A DNA stretch of 64,000 nt from Zeimonas arvi. GTDB lineage: Bacteria > Pseudomonadota > Gammaproteobacteria > Burkholderiales > Burkholderiaceae_E. Position 1 is the stretch's first letter, and the number at the start of each line of letters is the position of its first letter. Of the stretch, positions 617-45,363 are shown in pieces. Where the stretch lies: assembly GCF_008039575.1 (NCBI RefSeq), contig NZ_VDUY01000010.1, positions 1 to 64,000 of the forward strand, read 5' to 3'. The translations under genes were made by a program, and so were the position numbers. A model generated the notes under the pieces. The model searched no databases and had not been told where the DNA came from. It worked only from the letters and a program-made list of their open reading frames with translations.

Positions 617-693
617 TGCGCGCGTGATGAATTCCGGGGGATGCGGAAGCCTCCCTCGACCGATGTCTCCTCCTCCACCTCCCAGGTGGATTG

Positions 694-723
694 AGCCCGA
701 ACCCCCGGTTCGGGCTTTTTTTC
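694..723 (+). terminator. intrinsic terminator between convergent genes
   Basis: The stem agcccgaac / gttcgggct, with loop cccgg closed by GC pairs, is followed by seven T. It lies between the small ORF and the convergently oriented DMT transporter gene. Confidence 0.85.
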
Positions 724-7610: not shown

Positions 7611-7653
7611 TGGAACGACAGGGGGAAGCTGGAACGACAGGGGGCTGGAACGA
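7611..7653. repeat. short direct repeats, tggaacgacaggggg
   Basis: The 15-mer tggaacgacaggggg occurs at 7611-7625 and 7630-7644, and a truncated third copy (tggaacga) at 7646-7653. The array ends at the terminator of the intron-bearing tRNA gene. The function is unknown. It may be a replication-slippage remnant or a footprint of an insertion event. Confidence 0.6.
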
Positions 7654-7682
7654 AAAAGGCCGCGCAGCGATGCGCGGCCTTT
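7653..7682 (-). terminator. terminator of the tRNA-Asn transcript
   Basis: On the minus strand a 9-bp stem (ggccgcgca / tgcgcggcc, loop tcgc) is followed by five T, 11 bases after the CCA end of the tRNA. On the plus strand it is also followed by three T and could end the upstream gene. Confidence 0.85.
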
Positions 7683-7692
7683 CCGTGTAATC

Positions 7693-7982
7693 TGGCTCCC
7701 CGACCAGGGCTCGAACCTGGGACCTGCGGATTACAAGTGCCCGGAAGTTTCCAACCGGCTTGGACTTTCTCTTCGCCTTGGCTTTCGCTTTAGGCGCGCC
7801 CCGTAAAGTCTCTACACATGCCCGGCTTCGATCTGAAGATCTCTACCTGCTTGCTCGGGATTGCCTTGGCGCTTTCGGCGCTTTAGGGTTCCCCGAATTA
7901 GGGGTGTTTTCACCGTATGGTTTCCCATACGGGCTGCCATTAAGTTAACAGTCCGTCGCTCTACCGACTGAGCTATCGGGGA
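7693..7982 (-). tRNA. tRNA-Asn(GUU) interrupted by a group I intron
   Basis: Joining 7982-7948 (35 nt) to 7733-7693 (41 nt) gives a canonical 76-nt tRNA with encoded CCA. The acceptor stem is tccccga/tcgggga, the D arm gctcagtcggtagagc, the anticodon loop ctgttaa with anticodon GTT, and the T arm ccaggttcgagccctgg. This is a normal bacterial tRNA-Asn. The gene is split between the second and third anticodon bases by 214 bp that fold as a group I intron, so the functional tRNA depends on self-splicing. Only pair 27-43 (A-C) is unpaired in the anticodon stem. A terminator follows. The 5' exon overlaps the end of the upstream endonuclease ORF. Confidence 0.93.
7734..7947 (-). ncRNA. group I self-splicing intron (IC3-like) in tRNA-Asn
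   Basis: This is a 214-nt catalytic intron. P1 is formed by the 5' exon cugu and the guide gcag (7937-7934), with a U-G pair at the splice site. The last intron base is G (7734), as the omega-G rule requires. P2 is a perfect 8-bp hairpin ccgtatgg-GAAA-ccatacgg (7932-7913). P is aattcgggga (7899-7890) and Q is aatcccgagc (7862-7853); they pair as uucggg/cccgag (P4). R contains agagactt, and S contains aagtcc, giving P7 (7810-7806 with 7767-7763). P8 is cgcc/ggcg. The size and GAAA-capped P2 resemble the small tRNA introns of the Azoarcus type. No ORF lies inside the intron. Confidence 0.92.
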
Positions 7983-8445
7983 ACAGACAACGATTATAGC
8001 CAGACTTTCTCGAATCTGTCGAATCGCGTTCCAGAATGAAGGCAGCGGCGTCGCGCGTGCCACTGACCTGCCCGTTTCGCGCAGGTATCACGCGCAGCCT
8101 CACCTCACGGTTGCAGCTCGACACCGACTCGATCGGTACGAAGTAGACCTTGCCCGTGTCCGGGCAGAACACTCCGAACGCGTCGACCTGGTCGCGGTAG
8201 TGACGGCGACCGAGGCCGCGGTGGTTTGCCGAAGAGCTCGCCGGAAACGCGATCGACCCCTTGTCGTCGAGGCGACCCGTCCTGCACTGGATTCTGACGA
8301 GGCGCTGGCCGTCGTCCGCAATCAAGTCGTACCGAAGGTTGTCGCCGAAGGGCAGGCTGACGCCGTAACCGCACTCGAGTAGCTGCGCCAGGATGCGCGC
8401 CGTGCTCAGCTCGCCGACGGACTTGGAATTGAAAAGCGGCGTCAT
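7945..8445 (-). CDS. PD-(D/E)XK homing endonuclease, I-Ssp6803I-like, outside the intron
   Basis: This 166-residue protein resembles the PD-(D/E)XK nucleases associated with group I introns (type member I-Ssp6803I, from a cyanobacterial tRNA-fMet intron). Visible core: E12 in SVGELSTARILAQLLECGY, then PFGDNLRYDLI with D40, then RIQCRTG with Q53 and R55. The family normally has Lys where R55 stands. The enzyme would cut an intronless tRNA-Asn allele to start intron homing (inference). The ORF lies upstream of the tRNA, not in the intron. Its last 12 codons (FPDSSVGRATDC) are the tRNA 5' exon, and its TAA stop is the first three intron bases. No ribosome site precedes the ATG, and a LexA box ends one base before it. 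Confidence 0.82.
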   Translation of the reverse strand: MTPLFNSKSVGELSTARILAQLLECGYGVSLPFGDNLRYDLIADDGQRLVRIQCRTGRLDDKGSIAFPASSSANHRGLGRRHYRDQVDAFGVFCPDTGKVYFVPIESVSSCNREVRLRVIPARNGQVSGTRDAAAFILERDSTDSRKSGYNRCLFPDSSVGRATDC

Positions 8446-8464
8446 ACTGTAAATATATACAGAA
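8445..8464 (-). promoter_or_regulatory. LexA/SOS box at the endonuclease start codon
   Basis: The plus strand reads tactgtaaatatatacagaa, which fits the LexA consensus CTGT-N8-ACAG used by gamma- and betaproteobacteria. The core palindrome is 8447-8462. It ends one base before the ATG of the endonuclease ORF. The same AT-rich run could serve as a -10 element, implying a very short or absent leader. LexA bound here would block transcription until DNA damage. Confidence 0.82.
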
Positions 8465-8494
8465 CGACGCCGATCGTGAAGTCCGGTGCGGCTT

Positions 8495-8537
8495 GCCGCA
8501 GCCGCAGCCGCAGCCGCAGCCGCAGCCGCAGCCGCAG
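8495..8537. repeat. gccgca hexamer tandem repeat, 7 copies
   Basis: Seven uninterrupted copies of gccgca fill the space between the tyrB stop codon (8539-8541) and the region upstream of the endonuclease promoter. The hexamer length would keep frame if read. It lies just outside tyrB and is a candidate for copy-number variation between strains. Confidence 0.9.
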
Positions 8538-45003: not shown

Positions 45004-45039
45004 TCGAGAGCTCCCTGGCCGGAACGGACACCGATGACC

Positions 45040-45182
45040 ATGCGCGCCCCGGCCAGTCCGGCGGCCTCATGGTCAAAGGTCTTGCCAGGTCGAGAGACTG
45101 CGCGCGCCATGGCCGGTGGGCCAAGTGTGTTGACGCGGGCCCCTTCGAATGCTGCGAAGGGCGGCTACTCCCCAATGACGGG
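45040..45182 (-). ncRNA. yybP-ykoY manganese riboswitch
   Basis: The minus-strand leader of the exporter gene contains the aptamer hallmark ttggggagtagccgc (about 45175-45161), then gtcaacacacttggccc and ggcaagacctttgacc, the pattern of proteobacterial yybP-ykoY RNAs. The expression platform follows (gaccatgaggcc... with ...gcatggtc pairing near 45037-45075). A -10-like tagaat lies at 45192-45187. The aptamer binds Mn2+ and should raise exporter expression when manganese is high. Confidence 0.87.
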
Positions 45183-45363
45183 GCGCATTCTACCCGAGTT
45201 GCCTTTGGGCGTGCGCCCGGGCCGGTCGGGATAAGCGCCCGGGCTCGTCCCCGACCGGCCGTGCATGTCGTGCGCTTCGTCGGCCGCAGTGTTGCCCTGG
45301 CAGCAAACGTCGCGAGGCGCCAGCGTAAGCGGCCGAGTGACCGCCTGAACACCGCGACCTCGA

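Follow-up and report, generated by a model that had tools for sequence, protein, structure and literature searches.

Does the decoding of asparagine in Zeimonas arvi depend on a group I ribozyme lodged within an anticodon and, if so, how did the ribozyme come to be there? Group I introns are known in bacterial tRNA-Leu(UAA), tRNA-fMet, tRNA-Ile(CAU), and tRNA-Arg(CCU) (PMC5733544, PMC8450103). Hosts claimed for cyanobacteria include tRNA-Arg, tRNA-Gly, and tRNA-Lys (PMC5733544), Ile2 and fMet hosts have been reported (PMC8450103), and a 2007 paper counted four bacterial tRNA hosts (PMC1995217). One of these introns, in the tRNA-fMet gene of Synechocystis PCC 6803, encodes the active homing endonuclease I-Ssp6803I (PMC1995217). 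The original prediction, made from the letters of a 64,000-nucleotide stretch (hereafter the window), placed a group I intron in tRNA-Asn(GUU), which it did not list among the known hosts. The open papers searched, a set that omits most subscription papers, likewise gave no bacterial or phage example of such an intron in tRNA-Asn.

The split tRNA-Asn gene and its group I fold

The prediction had read positions 7693–7982 as two exons that flank a 214-nt insert and join to a perfect 76-nt tRNA-Asn. The range and the insert length are as described (Table 1), and ARAGORN identified the 76-nt exon join as tRNA-Asn(gtt). The joined exons were identical at 76 of 76 positions to the intact tRNA-Asn genes of two congeners, G003 (L194) and G002 (L197), and differed from the intact gene of a third, G001 (L200).

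Table 1. Features at the split tRNA-Asn locus, in window coordinates
Feature	Position	Strand	Details
Possible intrinsic terminator	7653..7682	minus	GC-rich hairpin then T run; by eye
tRNA-Asn 3' exon	7693..7733	minus	41 nt; tRNA positions 36-76; CCA encoded
Group I intron	7734..7947	minus	214 nt; start TAACTTAATGGCAG, end CACTTG (terminal G); RF00028 match (49.9 bits), covariation, junction from relatives
tRNA-Asn(GUU) 5' exon	7948..7982	minus	35 nt; tRNA positions 1-35; end ...GGACTGT; with 3' exon equals intact genes of G003 and G002
PD-(D/E)XK endonuclease ORF	7945..8445	minus	166 aa; PDDEXK_5 at residues 6-136 (8038-8430); I-Ssp6803I homologue
Sigma-70-like promoter	7993..8022	minus	TCGACA-18-TATAAT, 11/12; scanner found 1 versus mean 0.2 in shuffles
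492-nt segment, most of endonuclease ORF	8046..8537	minus	Missing in close relative G007; GCTGC repeats at bounds

ARAGORN overlooked the split gene when introns were disallowed; when they were allowed, it returned tRNA-Asn(gtt) with a 199-nt intron set at 37/38. Taken by itself, the window sequence carries a three-base ambiguity at the junction, with TAA opening both the intron and the 3' exon. In the relatives L035, L072, L094, L112, and L140, however, the first intron base is C, which places the junction at U35|U36 with an intron-terminal G and bears out the predicted cut inside the anticodon between bases 35 and 36. Splicing at 37/38, outside the anticodon, is what the ARAGORN output would imply, but its product would be unlike the intact tRNA sequences of the congeners, and the intron-initial C of the relatives permits 35/36 alone; we give this alternative almost no weight.

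A search with the Rfam Intron_gpI model (RF00028) matched the insert from end to end (model positions 1–253) with 49.9 bits and an E value of 1.2e-11 in the 701-base stretch searched. The curated (gathering) cut-off for this model is 50 bits, and a default Rfam search is silent at the intron because its score falls just below that value. None of the 14 introns of the window type reached the cut-off in the searches made: nine scored 33.4–49.9 bits, and five were unreported. The window intron was the sole Intron_gpI match at E values up to 1 in the whole genome (3.83 Mb in 16 contigs, 98.9% complete).

We aligned these 14 introns (12 from the genus, G062 from the family, and L112) and scored a structure running from P1 to P9 with the P3/P7 crossing, which we laid out by fitting the general group I architecture to the window sequence and which is therefore favored over versions in which the partners are slid. 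Pairing was found in 97.4% of 820 cells, compared with 28.6–46.2% when partners were slid by one to three columns. Double-sided changes occurred in 19 of 59 pairs (mean of 6.8 in shuffles), and 0 of 500 shuffles, which ignore kinship, matched either observed value. Because of this disregard for kinship, and because the structure was drawn on the window, it is the double changes that count as evidence. P1 (including its U-G pair) and P7 are invariant across the 14 introns and so contribute no covariation; the double changes are distributed over P2, P3, P4, P5, P6, P8, and P9, some of them arising from L112 alone. These results support the conclusion that the conserved helices P1–P9, including the P3/P7 pseudoknot, are maintained by compensatory change. 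The profile match and the covariation together back the assignment of a group I intron to tRNA-Asn(GUU).

The finer features that had been predicted, a P1 U-G pair, a GAAA-capped P2, and a terminal G, are all present in the window intron. The U-G pair at the 5' splice site was found in all 14 introns, and the terminal G in each of the 31 introns of bacterial tRNA genes whose ends are set by the exons (18 in tRNA-Asn and 13 in others), although the pattern search of the genus required G or T before the 3' half, so that the terminal G there is not fully independent. A terminator scanner listed nothing at the hairpin at 7653..7682, which was also seen in sub-threshold Rfam leader matches. Elsewhere in the window, Rfam reported a manganese riboswitch at 45007-45185 (minus strand, 92.4 bits) and a Betaproteobacteria toxic small RNA at 664-723 (plus strand, 55.3 bits).

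Occurrence of the split gene in the genome, the genus, and beyond

A tRNA family search of the genome gave 40 matches, all of which were examined, and no further tRNA-Asn gene was among them; this search is not exhaustive, as it missed tRNA-Arg(CCG), which was found by pattern (G000:C5:348841-348870, L371). In a pattern search that tolerated up to two mismatches, the split gene was the sole tRNA-Asn-like 3' half in the Z. arvi genome (G000). Both searches thus count the split copy alone, and because no other tRNA-Asn was found in the assembly, splicing should be essential.

Among 18 genomes of the genus, 12 carry the split gene (an exact 3' half preceded by G), three carry an intact gene (preceded by T; G001, G002, and G003), and three have no exact match (G009, G010, and G015). 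None of the 18 has both forms, and a separate pattern search likewise found the intact-gene pattern in none of the 12 split-gene genomes. In all 12 split and all three intact genomes, tRNA-Asn and uvrB share a contig and are separated by no more than a few kb, and aspC sits between the two in the genomes compared.

These observations bear on the possibility that the tRNA gene is dead, its insert having lost the ability to splice, and that a gene missing from the assembly provides tRNA-Asn. An assembly in 16 contigs that is 98.9% complete could lack such a gene, and the family search did miss one tRNA. Against this, an intact gene was found in 0 of 12 split-gene genomes, the exons are unchanged, the fold is kept by compensatory changes, and the genome does use asparagine codons (uvrB by itself contains 19). 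We consider a dead gene very unlikely. The predicted dependence of asparagine decoding on splicing, itself deduced from sequence, is supported by the gene structure, the covariation, the empty sites in congeners, and the failure of both searches to find a second tRNA-Asn.

Beyond the genus, 13 of 74 genomes of the family are split (the 12 of the genus and G062), 41 have T before the 3' half, and 20 have no match. Five of 399 genomes in a sample of the order matched the pattern, three of them genuinely; the matches in G136 and G202 were rejected because the tRNA context is missing. Samples of the class (369 genomes) and the phylum (388 genomes) each gave one match, the window's own. As the sample patterns fix the 35/36 cut, and those for the order and phylum also require an AGTCC element, other split forms would be missed. 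A broad scan of genome contigs gave at least 120 stretches, mostly tandem tRNA-Asn arrays, with 101 tandem and 6 intron-like matches among the 80 loci listed; absence elsewhere cannot be read from these listed matches. A plasmid search matched exon parts only, and a phage search gave no match to the window intron.

Other elements were seen in the course of these searches. The congener G011 has a 722-nt group I match (L034, 66.2 bits), the flanks of which appear to be 23S rRNA sequence. At L049 and L051, tRNA-Ile(CAU) is apparently interrupted at 33/34, ahead of the anticodon, and the introns there do not resemble the remaining CAU introns.

The upstream endonuclease reading frame

The original prediction was right about the gene and its intron but overlooked an adjoining endonuclease ORF, as well as the introns of viral contigs described below. 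The ORF lies directly upstream of the split gene; its 3' end traverses the tRNA promoter and the 5' exon to terminate at a stop codon formed by the initial three intron bases. It matched Pfam PDDEXK_5 (PF11645) with 118.4 bits (cut-off 26.1). The top PDB sequence match was 2ost, which is I-Ssp6803I (1.8e-7), and 2ost also ranked top when the predicted structure (mean pLDDT 72.8) was compared with PDB folds (E 2.2e-9, TM 0.60). At the position of the motif lysine, the window copy has arginine, and G004, G006, G013, G016, G135, L316, L323, and 2ost have lysine. The aligned lysine of 2ost is presumably the catalytic one, and the window copy, in which arginine replaces it, may be dead.

Immediately upstream of the split gene, the endonuclease is full-length in G000, G004, G006, G013, and G016, and also in G135, which belongs to another family and has a different intron core. 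The endonuclease is truncated in G014, and only fragments are present in G012 and MESE (L094); none was found next to the split gene in G005, G007, G008, G011, or G017, or next to the intact tRNA-Asn of the three intact genus genomes (G001, G002, and G003). Full-length copies are thus present in 5 of 12 split and 0 of 3 intact genus genomes, numbers too small to prove a link. In G004, G006, G013, and G135, the endonuclease stop is the TAG of TAGAAT, which looks by eye like the −10 box for the tRNA. The dN/dS ratio was 0.10–0.27 in 12 of 15 endonuclease pairs, with dS mostly >1, and in the other three dS was saturated; these ratios indicate that the endonuclease is under purifying selection.

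The close relative G007, which lacks the 492 nt listed in Table 1, retains the last part of the endonuclease frame and the intron, and the missing segment looks like a deletion. A short GCTGCG repeat lies at about 8500-8537 of the window, in the interval that separates the aspC end from the endonuclease ORF, and one GCTGC within it is one edge of the segment absent from G007.

Viral relatives, gain and loss, and a proposed mechanism

We scanned viral contigs with a pattern comprising the 3' half and the upstream AGTCC element and obtained 71 stretches: 26 split tRNA-Asn, 5 split tRNA-Lys(UUU), 2 split tRNA-Lys(CUU), 17 intact tRNAs, and 21 others. Among the last group, L323 and L351 proved to be split tRNA-Asn genes whose introns are longer, and a split tRNA-Lys(UUU) was recognized in L316. 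The contigs predicted to be viral thus carry 28 tRNA-Asn genes (23 distinct introns) and 8 tRNA-Lys genes (7 distinct introns) split by group I cores. The split-gene contigs include L273, L304, L306, L310, L317, and L335, and L273 bears a tRNA array. PDDEXK_5 proteins are encoded inside the introns of L323 (tRNA-Asn, 89.1 bits) and L316 (tRNA-Lys, 105.8 bits), and the intron of L351 encodes an HNH-like protein that scored 20.4 bits, below the cut-off of 21.4. In a tree of introns, the window intron clusters with those of viral tRNA-Asn genes L317 and L306 and viral tRNA-Lys genes L296 and L319 (100/97).

We then compared the viral split tRNA loci with an annotated phage collection by BLAST; each query matched 4–16 records, except for one without any match, and 13 regions were examined. 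Five proved to be split tRNA genes of kinds other than tRNA-Asn. Gordonia phage Daredevil (L363) has a split tRNA-Lys (34/35, by eye), and Agrobacterium phage Atu_ph07 (L364) and an uncultured 735-kb phage (L369) have a split tRNA-Leu. Klebsiella phages Muenster and RCIP0023 (L372 and L376) have a split CAU tRNA, with an intron match of 104.1 bits and exons assigned by eye. ARAGORN, run with introns allowed, did not call the Klebsiella genes; Rfam reported their introns and left the phage tRNA-Lys and tRNA-Leu introns unreported. None of the five phage records has an annotated feature at the place of the split tRNA. The remaining eight regions were rejected because they lie in or near protein genes, three on the basis of annotation and five also for want of a tRNA in ARAGORN. 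Across the 13 regions, none of the named phages showed a split tRNA-Asn. The number of split tRNA genes on viral contigs and their position in the tree suggest that viral tRNA genes are likely to be a wider reservoir of these introns.

Is the intron of Z. arvi nevertheless an old, immobile element inherited vertically, like that of tRNA-Leu(UAA), with the endonuclease ORF as an unrelated passenger? It is present at one syntenic place in 12 of 18 genus genomes, which fits vertical descent with some loss; 7 of the 12 split-gene genomes have no full-length endonuclease; and the nearest introns to that of the window belong to its nearest relatives in a tree of UvrB. The passenger role is harder to reconcile with an endonuclease of the PD-(D/E)XK kind, to which a known tRNA-intron enzyme belongs, with homologues inside viral tRNA-Asn and tRNA-Lys introns, with the same placement beside a different intron core in G135, and with purifying selection. 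We regard an immobile, vertically inherited intron as unlikely, and favor an intron of the homing type.

The UvrB tree, which covers 15 genomes (G005, G010, and G015 were left out), requires three changes of the split/intact label. It places the intact G003 as sister to the split pair of G000 and G007 (88/98), the UvrB proteins of which are 98.7% identical. G003 has neither intron nor endonuclease but shares the promoter-proximal 50 nt with G000, and the simplest reading of this pattern is a precise loss of the intron in G003; separate gains are the alternative.

Four bacterial tRNA-Asn introns (G135, L072, L094, and L140) have another core and group with tRNA-Ile(CAU) introns (98/97, and 95/89 in a second tree), indicating from intron phylogeny that clearly different cores occupy one tRNA-Asn site. 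A single clade of all 18 bacterial tRNA-Asn introns was not rejected (p 0.069); it was rejected after MERQ (L112) was dropped, a choice made after the tree was seen (p 0.00016). When viral introns were added and MERQ kept, a single tRNA-Asn clade of 39 was rejected (p 0.0016), and the tRNA-Asn label must change four or more times across well-supported branches. These tests are limited by long branches and difficult alignment, and rejection fits repeated entry into tRNA-Asn and a role for tRNA-Asn as the source for other tRNAs alike. The MERQ intron (MERQ01000087.1, 405-630) combines a P1-P2 part close to the G135 type with a core closer to that of the window: over the initial 36 nt it agrees with G135 at 32/36 positions and with the window at 22/36, and the remainder matches G135 at 71/170 and the window at 113/162. 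It may be a mosaic, although its 5' likeness to G135 may in part be imposed by the shared exon with which this region pairs.

We propose that the locus is probably a homing-type mobile tRNA intron, with both splicing and homing deduced from the comparisons above. The tRNA gene's own promoter would drive a precursor in which the anticodon, GU|U, is interrupted by the group I ribozyme. The CUGU of the 5' exon would pair with the ribozyme guide GCAG, with U35 forming the P1 U-G pair; free guanosine bound at P7 would cut after U35, as suggested by the sequence and the conserved structure, and the freed end of the 5' exon would attack after the terminal G, joining the exons to tRNA-Asn(GUU). The intron would have arrived by homing, in which the upstream I-Ssp6803I-type endonuclease cuts tRNA-Asn alleles that lack the intron, and donor-templated repair copies the endonuclease, promoter, 5' exon, and intron as a single block. 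In the Z. arvi genome, the endonuclease may already be inactive, and the intron would persist because it still splices, at little cost.

Compared with the known bacterial tRNA introns, the window intron shares the small ribozyme in the anticodon loop, the P1 U-G pair, the terminal G, the P3-P9 core, and GNRA-capped P2 and P9; it differs in its host (tRNA-Asn(GUU), for which the genome searches gave no second gene), in its cut at 35/36, and in a core that scores below the Rfam cut-off. With I-Ssp6803I and the Synechocystis tRNA-fMet intron it shares the PD-(D/E)XK fold and the tie to a tRNA group I intron, but the window ORF is not intron-encoded and instead precedes the tRNA gene, whose promoter it overlaps, the host tRNA is different, and arginine replaces the motif lysine. 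In collaborative homing, described in two phage systems, a free-standing endonuclease acts with an ORF-less intron (PMC3984707). The window resembles these systems in its ORF-less group I intron and nearby free-standing homing-type endonuclease, and differs in that the setting is a bacterial chromosome, the target is a tRNA gene, the enzyme is of the PD-(D/E)XK kind, and its cutting of the intron site is putative. The element is thus of a known kind, with a host gene new to the open papers searched and an unusual placement of the endonuclease.

More tentatively, we suggest that anticodon position 35/36 of tRNA-Asn (and tRNA-Lys) may be a recurrent landing site for a phage-centered class of tRNA introns, one that escapes annotation by evading both profile searches and tRNA finders. 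This site would be shared by different ribozyme cores, and the bacterial mobile unit would be an endonuclease gene whose frame doubles as the promoter of the invaded tRNA gene, so that one repair event replaces the promoter, the 5' exon, and the intron.

A 2014 review stated that all phage introns then observed were in protein-coding genes, despite the many tRNA genes of phages (PMC3984707). The five phage records and the predicted viral contigs contradict that statement and indicate a wider viral range. Because none of the 14 introns of the window type scored up to the Rfam cut-off, the annotation of other genomes may report tRNA-Asn as missing. The genus includes genomes that are intron-free, genomes with the intron and a full endonuclease, with the intron and a truncated or fragmentary endonuclease, and with the intron alone, together with one apparent precise loss; because all these states occur within one genus, the cycle of gain, decay, and loss of a homing intron can be tested on close relatives. 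In most of the sampled members of this genus, the decoding of asparagine seems to be staked on a ribozyme.
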